64,000 bases of DNA, from positions 212,760 through 276,759 of the forward strand of contig QQVD01000048.1 in NCBI GenBank assembly GCA_003388555.1, in the 5' to 3' direction. Source of the stretch: Acidobacteriota bacterium. Lineage in GTDB: Bacteria; Acidobacteriota; Thermoanaerobaculia; Multivoradales; Multivoraceae. The position numbers and the translations under genes are program-made. Below the pieces are notes generated by a model. It ran no database searches and was not told the origin of the DNA. It saw only the letters and a list, made by a program, of their open reading frames with translations. Of this stretch, positions 26,015-29,049 are shown one piece after another. Positions within the stretch are counted from its first letter, which is position 1, and each line of letters starts with the position of its first letter.

Positions 26015-26560
26015 TCAACCCACGACTGGCGCGGCGTCCTTCCCCGCTTCTTCGTCGATCAGCCGCGCCAGGATCTGCTCGACCGAGGTTTCGGCGAGGG
26101 CAGCCACCTCGTCGTCGGTGCGGTCCTGGATCGGGTGGGCGACGAGCACGGAGCGGTCGGGAGAGCCGAGAGAACGGGCCTGCGCCAGCGCCGCCTCGCG
26201 GAACTCCGAGGAGGCGACGAAGACGGCCGGAAGCCCCAGCTCCTCGAGCTCCGTCGTGTCGTGCACACTGCACGACGTGCACGACCCTCAATCGGCGAGC
26301 GCCTCGACGACTGCATGGCAGCGTTCGGCGATCTCGCGCCGCAGGTCCGGCGGGGCGTTGCGGGTGAAGGTCGGTTTGCGGAAGCGCTCGACCCGTGCGC
26401 CCCGCTGTTCGAGTAGCGCCTGCAGGCGGTCGAGGAAGACGTCGCCGCGTGGCTTGGAGATGTCGAGCAGGCCGACGGTGGTGCCCTCGAGCCCGGCGAT
26501 CCGCCGAGCTCGCGGCCGCGCGGCGGGCCTGAGCTCGTGGGTGGGGTCGAGAAGCTGCAT
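26015..26560 (-). CDS. UGSC-family selenoprotein (in-frame UGA read as selenocysteine)
   Basis: Two open frames, 26560-26291 and 26287-26015, are in register and separated only by a TGA at 26288-26290. Read through as selenocysteine this gives 181 residues with the motif U91-G-S-C94-T-S-C97 followed by SVHD, the hallmark of the UGSC selenoprotein family. The N-terminal half has a beta-alpha pattern (TVGLLDISKPRGD) and the C-terminal half a second one (AVFVASSEF, VAHP), so the redox motif sits at a domain junction. A well-formed SECIS candidate starts 12 bases after the UGA. The function is not established; a thiol/selenol redox role is likely. The upstream gene encodes a thioredoxin-fold fusion protein 54 bp away, so the two probably form an operon. 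The ATG has GAGGA about 11 bases upstream. SelA, SelB, SelD and tRNA-Sec must be elsewhere in the genome. Confidence 0.88.
26258..26276 (-). promoter_or_regulatory. Bacterial SECIS element candidate
   Basis: In the mRNA, bases 12 to 30 after the UGA form a perfect 8-bp stem (GUCGUGCA with UGCACGAC) closed by the loop GUG. A stem near this distance, with a small apical loop starting in G followed by U, is what bacterial SECIS models require for SelB binding. A competing 9-bp stem beginning three bases after the UGA with a ten-base loop is also possible. Confidence 0.75.
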
Positions 26561-26614: not shown

Positions 26615-28123
26615 TCAGCCGAGCTCTTCGACGGCGCGCGTCACCGGGATACTACCGGTCGAGCCGCCGACCCAACCACCGAGCACAGCCGAGAAGAGGC
26701 CGGCGCCGCCGCCGGCACGGGCGAGCAGGAGTGCGTCGGGACGTAGCTTGGGCAGCTTCTCCGGAGCAGGATCGGGAAGGCGATCCTTCGCCACGCCCTC
26801 GGCGCAGCCGCCGGCGCCGCGCTCGATCTCCGCCAGCGGCAGCTGCAAGCGCTCTAGCAGCTCGCCGCGCAGCCGGGCCCGGCTCCAGCCCGCCTGGTCG
26901 ATCACCCGGCAGTGCTCGGGTGACAGCACCAGCAGCGCGTCGAAGCCGAGCACCAGCTTCGGATGCGCCACGGAGCGCAGTCCAGCGGCGAGCGACCAGG
27001 CGAGCGATTCGGGGGTGCGCGAGAGCTGATCGACGATGCCGCGTGGGCCCTCGCCGGCGAAGAGGGTGACTGCGGAGCGGCCGGCCTCGACGCCACGCTC
27101 CGCCGCCAACGAGCCCCAGGCCGCCGGATCGTCGCGCCAGTCCTCGTTCTCGGTGAAGCAGAGCGACAGCTTGCCCGGGTTGCCCAGGGTGGCGCGGTCG
27201 ATGCCGCCCGGGACGACGCCGCCGACGTTGCGCAGCGTCAGTTGCAGCGCCCTGCCGATGGTCGAGTTGGCGCGGTTGCCCTGGCCGAGGGCATTGACTC
27301 CCGAGTTCATGCCGATCCGGCTTGCCACCGGACCGTTGACCACCACCACGGGGCCCGAGAAGTAGGTGGTCGCGGCCAGCCCGTGCCAGTTGAACGGTTC
27401 GCTGCAAGCCGCCTCGATCGCGGTGAGCACGATCGGCAGGTACTCGGGCAGGCAGCCGGCCATCACCGCGTTGATCGCCGCCTTCTCGACCGTACACACG
27501 CCGTAGTCGGGCGCCACGCGGGCGAGCACCTCGGCCGGGTCGCGCCGCGTGCCGCCGAGCATGCGCTGCACGCGCTCCGCGGTCGGGGGGACCACCGGAA
27601 GCCCGTCACTCCAGCCGCGCCGGAAGCAGGCCTCGATCGGGTCCTCCTCGTCGCCGATCTCGACGCTACGGGCCAGGGGCCCGCCGCGGTCGAGAAGAGC
27701 CAGCCGCTCGGCGTGGGGCGACTGCAGGTTCAGCGCGCCGCATCCGGGCCGCTGCTCCGGCAGCCCTTCCCCGAGGTCCTCGATGCCGGTGAGTCGGCGC
27801 CACTCGGCGCGGTTCCACCCCACCGCGCGCCCGACGCTGTCGCCGCCACGCCGCACCAGCAGGGTCGGCACGGTGTCGACCTCCAGACGATGGGAGAGCA
27901 GCAGCTCGTGGTCGAGAGCGGTGGGGATCCCGAGCTCGTCGAGGAACCCGATCGGGTGATCCTGCGCCACCACCTGGAGCGGCTCCGGAGCCCGCTGCAG
28001 CCGCTGCAGCGCGCCGGCGACCAGCGAGCAGGTCGGGCAGTCGCTCTTGACCACCACCACCCAGCCGTCTGCGAGTGGTTGCGCGTCGCCGGGCTGTGCC
28101 GTGGCCGGTGCAGAGGGGCTCAT
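26615..28123 (-). CDS. Thioredoxin-fold protein fused to a large uncharacterised domain, UGSC-associated
   Basis: The 502-residue protein starts with a thioredoxin-like domain (about 18-110) with CPTC at 29-32 and the cis-Pro strand VDTVPTLLV. It continues into a domain of about 350 residues that begins with WSDGLPVVPPTAERV and includes VCTVEKAAINAVMAGC and NGPVASRIGMNSG. I recall DGLPVVPPT proteins as neighbours of UGSC selenoproteins, but their activity is unknown. The pair with the next gene suggests that CPTC and U-GSC-TSC exchange electrons. The start at 28123 is chosen because the fold begins shortly after it; an ATG at 28183 is possible. Neither has a clear Shine-Dalgarno. Confidence 0.75.
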   Translation of the reverse strand: MSPSAPATAQPGDAQPLADGWVVVVKSDCPTCSLVAGALQRLQRAPEPLQVVAQDHPIGFLDELGIPTALDHELLLSHRLEVDTVPTLLVRRGGDSVGRAVGWNRAEWRRLTGIEDLGEGLPEQRPGCGALNLQSPHAERLALLDRGGPLARSVEIGDEEDPIEACFRRGWSDGLPVVPPTAERVQRMLGGTRRDPAEVLARVAPDYGVCTVEKAAINAVMAGCLPEYLPIVLTAIEAACSEPFNWHGLAATTYFSGPVVVVNGPVASRIGMNSGVNALGQGNRANSTIGRALQLTLRNVGGVVPGGIDRATLGNPGKLSLCFTENEDWRDDPAAWGSLAAERGVEAGRSAVTLFAGEGPRGIVDQLSRTPESLAWSLAAGLRSVAHPKLVLGFDALLVLSPEHCRVIDQAGWSRARLRGELLERLQLPLAEIERGAGGCAEGVAKDRLPDPAPEKLPKLRPDALLLARAGGGAGLFSAVLGGWVGGSTGSIPVTRAVEELG

Positions 28124-28260
28124 CGCGGAGCAGGATACAGCGCTCCACCCGTCGCTGCCGCCCTGGCCGCGCCGGATCTTCATCGAGTACGGCGCCCGCC
28201 CACGGCCCGGCTGCCGCTATCCTCGGGCCCTCGATCTGACTCCCGACGACCTCTCAGGCT

Positions 28261-28386: not shown

Positions 28387-29049
28387 GTGACCGAGACCTC
28401 CGAGCACGATCGTCGACAGCCAGCGCCCGCAGTCGCCGCCGCCGCGCGCGTCACCCTCGTTCCGGGCACGGCCCTGCTGCTGGTGCGACACGGCGAGAGC
28501 GTCGCCAACGCCGAGCGCCGCTTCACCAGGGACGAGCACGAGCCGCTCACCGAACAGGGGGTGGCGCAGGCCCGCCGCACGGCGCTGCGCCTGGCCGAGA
28601 GTTGCAGTGCGGTGGCCCTCTACTCGAGTCCCTACCGCCGCGCCCACCACACGGCGCTCGAGATCGGCTCGCGGCTGCGGCTCGAGCCCCGCATCGACCA
28701 GCGGCTCTACGAGCAGGGTTTCGGCGAGCTCACCGGGAGGCCCTACGGCGACTACTTCGGGCGCCACGCGCACGTCGCCGGCGCCGGCCGCTGGCGACTG
28801 GCGGCGCCCGGAGGAGAGTCGCTCGAACAGGTCGCCGGCCGCGTCGGTCCCGCGATCGCCGAGATCGCCTGCCGCCATCCGGGGCAGGCGGTGGTGGTGG
28901 TCAGCCACGGAGGCGTCATGGCGGCGCTCCGGCTGTGGGCGCACGGCGACTTCGAGAGCGCGCCGGTTCCGACCGAGAATGCCGGTGGGTACCGTCTGGT
29001 TGTCGGGTCCGGAGGCGCCTGGTTCGGACCTCCCGAGCCACTGTTCTGA
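28387..29049 (+). CDS. Histidine phosphatase-family protein (phosphoglycerate mutase-like)
   Basis: The 220-residue protein has the catalytic LLVRHGES motif, in which the His is phosphorylated, and a second active-site region VVVVSHGGVM. The core LYSSPYRRAHHTAL is also typical. Members act as phosphoglycerate mutases, sugar or nucleotide phosphatases, and the sequence does not decide between them; the free-standing context favours a phosphatase. The start is a GTG at 28387 with GGAG upstream. A stretch of about 20 residues precedes the domain. Confidence 0.87.
   Translation: MTETSEHDRRQPAPAVAAAARVTLVPGTALLLVRHGESVANAERRFTRDEHEPLTEQGVAQARRTALRLAESCSAVALYSSPYRRAHHTALEIGSRLRLEPRIDQRLYEQGFGELTGRPYGDYFGRHAHVAGAGRWRLAAPGGESLEQVAGRVGPAIAEIACRHPGQAVVVVSHGGVMAALRLWAHGDFESAPVPTENAGGYRLVVGSGGAWFGPPEPLF

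Follow-up and report, generated by a model that had tools for sequence, protein, structure and literature searches.

The selenoproteins GrdB and PrdB of glycine and D-proline reductase form a family whose partner is of the pyruvoyl (GrdE/PrdA) kind. Another selenoprotein family, UGSC, was in print by 2008, and that paper describes it as a major selenoprotein family of aquatic metagenomes, with 255 selenocysteine (Sec) forms and 21 cysteine forms in the Global Ocean Sampling (GOS) data (PMC2398784). The present work concerns a UGSC gene in a 64,000-nucleotide stretch of DNA, referred to as the window, which covers positions 212,760 to 276,759 of contig QQVD01000048.1 from an Acidobacteriota bacterium (assembly GCA_003388555.1). 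At the level of sequence, the family membership of this gene, its in-frame TGA, a conserved hairpin, Sec machinery genes in the genome and a conserved partner are established. The UGA is probably read as selenocysteine, and the UGSC protein is probably the selenol subunit of a two-part reductase formed with the thioredoxin-domain protein encoded upstream. The original prediction, made from the DNA letters, regarded the function of the family as not established; a review agrees, and it also names a UxxCxxC motif for GrdB (PMC13188914).

The UGSC gene and its family

The original prediction described two in-register frames split by a single TGA and continuous as ...LADUGSCTSC. The minus-strand translation yields exactly this, as a chain of 181 residues. 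The frame from 26560 to 26015 is open but for the TGA at codon 91 and reads ...VVEALADUGSCTSCSVHDTTELEELGLPAVFVASS... around it. The feature is therefore real, and the strand, which had not been stated, is the minus strand; the plus strand of 26015..26560 translates without a UGSC product. The Pfam model PF24696 ("UGSC family") matches residues 3-167 with 150.2 bits against a cut-off of 25 (E-value 8.2e-44), and the NCBIfam model NF041046 ("UGSC family (seleno)protein") gives 150.7 bits against a curated cut-off of 125, so that the proposed alignment with the family succeeds with both curated models. The family match spans both sides of the TGA; consequently, both halves belong to one known protein. 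Members of the family carry TGA or a cysteine codon in the UGSC motif, and here it is the TGA at codon 91, within UGSCTSC. The gene is a further member of the known selenoprotein family UGSC by its sequence, with Sec predicted at codon 91.

The expectation that standard gene callers would report fragments is borne out by the protein database. It holds 1092 UGSC homologues, and 115 of the 120 best matches listed cover only 49-50% of the query (99-119 aa). Five of these half-length entries were read, and they end at ...ALAD, the residue before the TGA. The five full-length homologues among the 120 have cysteine (two), tryptophan (two) or arginine (one) at the Sec position; tryptophan is the reading of TGA under code 4.

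Relatives were collected at the DNA level in two ways. Among 396 genomes of the same phylum, the own genome included, 37 contain a UGSC match, which exceeds the cut-off in 26. Exactly one TGA is present in 28 of 28 rows over the cut-off; among the rows below it, some have no TGA and one has an additional TAA. A contig scan with search patterns that leave out the Sec position supplied further loci, the best 80 of 586, whose record titles name Acidobacteriota, Myxococcota, Actinomycetota, Chloroflexi, Gammaproteobacteria, Gemmatimonadota, Latescibacterota and others. In loci L023-L131, every one of the 110 UGSC hidden Markov model (HMM) matches that score 60 bits or more carries U at the motif; weaker matches, such as a 40-bit piece in L108, were dropped from this count and from the synonymous-shuffle count below. 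The homologues lacking U or Cys that had been named as a possible refutation are thus absent from these 110 matches and present among the full-length database entries, in three of five. Eight positions are invariant in all 66 aligned UGSC rows: P6, U/C91, S93, C94, F120, G132, H142 and P143.

The hairpin behind the UGA and the selenocysteine machinery

The bacterial selenocysteine insertion sequence (SECIS) is described as a stem-loop that follows the UGA closely and has a G in its small apical loop (PMC1088965). The hairpin predicted in the window (Table 1) lies directly 3' of the UGA and has a small, G-bearing loop. The 61 nt from the TGA have a minimum free energy of -27.9 kcal/mol (z -2.55), and 3 of 200 shuffles are as stable; against synonymous-codon shuffles, the z-score of the window hairpin is -1.79. 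For the first 45 nt of 112 sequences, such shuffles give a mean z of -1.35, with 65% below -1.

The stem is also conserved as a set of pairs. Over 59 distinct 36-nt sequences (matches below 100 bits left out), the inner six pairs, +16..+21/+25..+30, are formed in 353 of 354 cells, and the outer pairs +14/+32 and +15/+31 in 53 and 43 sequences, respectively. Two-sided changes occur at +17/+29 (four sequences), +14/+32 (three), +20/+26 (one) and +21/+25 (one). In the register of this stem, 85% of cells are paired, compared with at most 60% in eleven other registers. Where the loop encodes serine, the codon is AGT in all 45 distinct sequences (matches below 150 bits left out); as background, AGT makes up 7.0% of the 314 remaining serine codons of these frames and 6.2% of 1721 serine codons in the large domains of the partners. 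These sequence patterns point to an RNA constraint beyond protein coding, as expected of a bacterial SECIS.

The genome that contains the window comprises 6.8 Mb in 74 contigs and is 98.76% complete. A search for selA, selB, selD and tRNA-Sec had been proposed as a check, and all four are found over their cut-offs: SelA with 422.1 bits (cut-off 267.9), SelB with 315.4 (242.25), SelD with 228.3 (125) and the tRNA as given in Table 1. The absence of this machinery, which had been named as fatal to the prediction, is therefore not the case. Ten further rows of the tRNA-Sec search are below the cut-off, and two loci checked among them are tRNA-Ser.

The partner gene upstream

The UGSC gene starts 54 bases after the end of the partner gene, whose terminator is TGA. 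The N-terminal domain of the partner has thioredoxin topology and a CxxC motif; residues 1-33 have a predicted local distance difference test (pLDDT) score under 50. No Pfam or NCBIfam family matches the protein, its large domain of about 350 residues included, and it has at least 8000 homologues. The large domain itself has thousands of homologues, and in a Foldseek search it aligns weakly, over a long stretch, with class I fumarate hydratase, which is a lead only.

Taking the best UGSC match per locus, the large domain adjoins UGSC in 79 of 80 loci. It lies upstream on the same strand in 72 and is divergent in seven. The gap between the HMM matches of the 72 same-strand pairs has a median of 32 bases and is at most 150 in 70 of them. 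In L050 and L051, from another clade, the large domain and UGSC are fused in one chain. Some loci require a comment: no partner is seen in L053, a contig of only 3 kb; the sequences of L060 and L074 stop short of the thioredoxin region; and L067, L081 and L126 seem to be without thioredoxin in the pairing count only, where the large-domain match is split, since a thioredoxin match exists. The original prediction spoke of a paired thioredoxin-fold gene upstream. The thioredoxin domain is indeed present, but it makes up only about 100 N-terminal residues, and the part conserved beside UGSC is the larger domain. The literature passages searched contain no statement on a thioredoxin-fused partner.

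The same genome holds a second, diverged UGSC pair (locus L010, contig C11, 380-2031 and 2078-3430), in reversed order and without a thioredoxin domain. It adjoins a sulphur-transport protein (PF04143), a DUF6691 protein and a rhodanese.

Table 1. Features of the UGSC locus and the tRNA-Sec gene; positions refer to the window unless a contig is named.
Feature	Position	Strand	Remarks
UGSC-family selenoprotein gene	26015..26560	-	ATG start, 181 codons, a single TGA inside the frame and another as terminator
In-frame TGA, predicted selenocysteine (residue 91)	26290-26288	-	First residue of UGSCTSC (UxxCxxC)
Predicted bacterial SECIS	26253..26285	-	8-bp upper stem, GUG apical loop, 5-bp lower stem
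SECIS upper stem	26276-26269 with 26265-26258	-	+14..+21 with +25..+32 (T of TGA = 0)
Partner gene, 522 aa as mechanically called	26615..28183	-	Real start may be ATG at 28123, residue 21
Thioredoxin domain of partner (residues 32-134)	27782..28090	-	CcmG/ResA/DsbE-like fold match
CPTC motif (residues 49-52)	28028..28039	-	From translation; kept in ten thioredoxin-bearing alignment rows
Large uncharacterised domain of partner (about residues 175-522)	26618..27661	-	Adjoins or is fused to UGSC in relatives
tRNA-Sec	C14:253-347	-	70.1 bits vs cut-off 47; ARAGORN: tRNA-SeC, anticodon tca

Predicted fold and resemblance to GrdB

The AlphaFold2 model of the UGSC protein has a mean pLDDT of 92.0 and a predicted template modelling score of 0.86. 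Five strands alternate with helices along the chain, and the Sec residue lies between strand 3 and the next helix. Foldseek and VIA-align, with 50 rows each shown, return lumazine synthase, LarB, PurE and response regulators; no thioredoxin entry is present in either set of 50, although one may exist beyond these rows. The fold is predicted to be Rossmann-like alpha/beta, unlike the thioredoxin-like one suggested in 2008.

Profile scans of 66 UGSC members at E <= 1 against NCBIfam point to selenoprotein B. The GrdB model TIGR01917 is matched by 55 of the 66 (best 3.6e-5) and the GrdF model NF040794 by 54 (best 4.7e-5), followed by a various-selenoprotein-B model (24), GrdH (19) and PrdB (7). 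Besides these and the family's own models, no NCBIfam model is matched by more than two of the 66 members. For a direct comparison of profiles, 34 GrdB-like sequences were gathered from locus L132 and aligned. Against them, hhalign gives the UGSC profile a P of 9.2e-6 and a probability of 83%; two other pairs give P 0.14 and 0.48. The C-terminal part of UGSC alone reaches P 2.9e-6 with a score of 43.9, where 200 column shuffles reach at most 24.2, and the N-terminal part gives P 0.028. The motif of the GrdB-like protein in L132, UATCSRC, and that of the window, UGSCTSC, both fit UxxCxxC. A distant homology of UGSC and GrdB is likely from these sequence comparisons, resting on a short region. 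The literature passages searched contain no statement on such a relation.

Membership of UGSC in the GrdB family itself was considered and rejected. The window protein scores 12.0 of the 602.2 bits required by TIGR01917 and 11.1 of the 300 required by the PrdB model TIGR04483, and because the family cut-offs are missed by far, UGSC is not filed there.

Several GrdB-type frames were seen along the way. In L132 (1486-2829), from another genome of the phylum, a GrdB-like gene with an in-frame TGA stands between two frames that look GrdE-like by eye. PF07355-type frames with an in-frame TGA occur in L136, L139 and L140 (UPMC, UPSVC and UPNC) and are perhaps PrdB-like selenoproteins, and the window's own genome has a PF07355 match at C9:103626-103991.

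A genus with many copies

Nine genomes of one genus (g63, family f39) have at least nine UGSC matches each in the 396-genome scan, and five of them (G107, G116, G188, G242 and G250; loci L144-L173) were taken further. PF24696 has 102 matches in these five (28, 19, 12, 27 and 16 per genome), 99 of them over the cut-off. A TGA is present in 82 of the 102 (20, 18, 11, 17 and 16, that is, 11-20 per genome); contamination amounts to 5% in two of the genomes and 7% in one, and a few copies may be foreign or duplicated. Thirty of the 102 matches were fetched as loci, which covers 28 of the 82 TGA-bearing copies with regard to the place of the TGA. U occupies the Sec position in 28 of these 30 copies; the other two lack a TGA and have a residue other than U or C at the site. 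The motifs are USSC, UGSC, USQC and UDGC. Identity within a genome ranges from 27 to 87% among the 28 copies compared. Many copies are long frames with, by eye, a hydrophobic, signal-like N-terminal stretch, and the large-domain motif is found in 14 of 15 copies caught by regular expression. tRNA-Sec exceeds the cut-off in all five genomes.

In a survey that covered more than 5200 organisms, UGSC is listed beside the figures 26 and 33, and the largest bacterial selenoproteome then known is put at 39 (PMC5029168). Set against that number, the genus is unusual.

Gene neighbourhood

Conserved neighbour genes are found in 6 to 29 loci only, and no catabolic neighbourhood is shared. L049 (23-3047) holds a diverged pair in which a YGHUGSCTTG-type UGSC comes before the large domain; the pair is preceded by a xanthine/uracil-type permease (PF00860, 1.4e-88). 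In L082, L100 and L101, where UGSC and partner are divergent, a metallo-beta-lactamase-fold protein, a CoxG-like protein and molybdenum-hydroxylase subunits are nearby; each of these was Pfam-tested in one locus, and the blast clusters hold 6-8 loci. The neighbourhood gives no substrate, and the permease of L049 and the molybdenum-hydroxylase genes, which occur in a group of related loci, are leads only. In the window, a histidine phosphatase (PF00300) at 28387-29049 on the plus strand adjoins the partner gene. Another is near the partner in L101 (5781-6377, minus strand), in a blast cluster of eight loci.

Proposed mechanism and alternative explanations

For the two-part reductase, the following cycle can be envisaged. 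The large domain of the partner would bind and activate a substrate. The selenolate of UGSC would then attack it and cleave a bond reductively, in the manner of GrdB in glycine reductase and PrdB in D-proline reductase. A selenosulfide would form between Sec91 and Cys94, and the CPTC thioredoxin domain of the partner, acting in cis, would reduce it and regenerate Sec. In relatives that lack the thioredoxin domain, a free thioredoxin could take over this step. The reaction of GrdB and PrdB is covered in part by a review (PMC13188914).

Several observations weigh against this picture. The hairpin counts come from related, not independent, sequences and overstate the number of events, and the paralogue L010 in the same genome has no unusually stable hairpin (z +0.68). 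At the Sec position, three of the five full-length database homologues, seen as protein records, show W or R. The own-genome paralogue, L090 and L098 lack a thioredoxin domain, which is consequently not obligatory. As for GrdB, the Pfam family GRDB does not appear among the 25 of 29 families listed for the 66 members, and DUF116 is weakly matched by 22 of them. The likeness resides mainly in about 29 columns round the motif; with its seven residues masked, P is 0.0022 and the score 26.7 (maximum of 100 masked shuffles 22.8; reversed, unmasked control 23.7). Moreover, an hhalign comparison of the partner with a single GrdE-like sequence reveals no similarity (P 0.35).

With regard to the codon, a genuine stop or a pseudogene mutation is highly improbable. 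The gene's own terminator is also TGA, as such a reading would have it, but the same TGA recurs in 110 of 110 matches across several phyla, the protein is conserved on both sides of it, the RNA hairpin is conserved with two-sided changes, and the Sec machinery is present. It is harder still to credit a decoding of the TGA as tryptophan, as in code 4, or a non-programmed read-through. Although two database homologues have W at the position, the partner and UGSC genes both end at TGA, a tRNA-Sec with anticodon tca is present, and the hairpin is conserved.

With regard to function, the 2008 suggestion would make UGSC a thioredoxin-fold thiol oxidoreductase engaged in electron exchange with the thioredoxin-like protein next to it. 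The redox motif UxxC fits this, but the confident model (mean pLDDT 92), with five strands alternating with helices and Sec behind strand 3, and the lack of any thioredoxin among the 50 rows listed by Foldseek or VIA-align make the suggestion unlikely. Instead of a GrdB/PrdB-type reductase that degrades a substrate, UGSC and its partner could form a repair or detoxification enzyme, with peroxides, electrophiles or oxidised thiols as examples of what it might act on. The thioredoxin domain in cis, the lack of a shared catabolic neighbourhood (conserved neighbours in 6 to 29 loci only) and the occurrence of UGSC in records titled Actinomycetota, Acidobacteriota, Gammaproteobacteria and Chloroflexi, which are not known as Stickland fermenters, all favour such a role. 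Yet a conserved second domain of about 350 residues seems needless for a simple thiol peroxidase, and the 11-20 diverged, TGA-bearing copies that each genome of one genus carries are more suggestive of a diversification of substrates; the repair role is doubtful, though it deserves to be kept in view.

The reductase reading may be extended, tentatively, to a broader proposal. UGSC and the large domain could represent a selenium-dependent reductase of a new class, distantly related to glycine and D-proline reductase, with a single-domain selenol subunit, a substrate domain and a thioredoxin in cis, which in one genus may have been fused, exported and multiplied to 11-20 selenoproteins per genome for different substrates. 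The near-constancy of the partner, the fusions, a confident fold prediction at odds with the published one and the GrdB likeness together lead to a testable hypothesis, namely a two-part Sec reductase with its electron donor in cis. The genus with 11-20 TGA-bearing copies per genome is a natural place to seek the substrate. Gene callers cut the family in half, as 115 of the 120 best listed matches illustrate, and the partner, the fold, the GrdB resemblance and the expansion should be useful to specialists.

Comparison with known systems

GrdB (TIGR01917, PF07355), PrdB (TIGR04483) and UGSC all have UxxCxxC just behind a hydrophobic stretch, and GrdB and UGSC share G-I/L-P about 19 residues after the motif and HP about 30 further on; the profile match over this region is weak but recurs. 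In contrast to GrdB and PrdB, UGSC is one short domain, and its partner has a thioredoxin domain of its own. Residues 32-134 of the partner share the fold of CcmG, ResA and DsbE thioredoxin-like proteins and hold CPTC; unlike in those proteins, the domain is fused to one of about 350 residues that belongs to no family. The GOS paper describes a fusion of UGSC with Unknown_1, comparable to the fused chains of L050 and L051 in that UGSC is joined to a further conserved domain; Unknown_1 may correspond to the large domain. The window gene resembles the UGSC family of NF041046 and PF24696 in its motif, Sec codon and bacterial SECIS-like hairpin. Compared with the published family, the protein itself is no different, and the additions are a thioredoxin-fused partner and a differing fold prediction.
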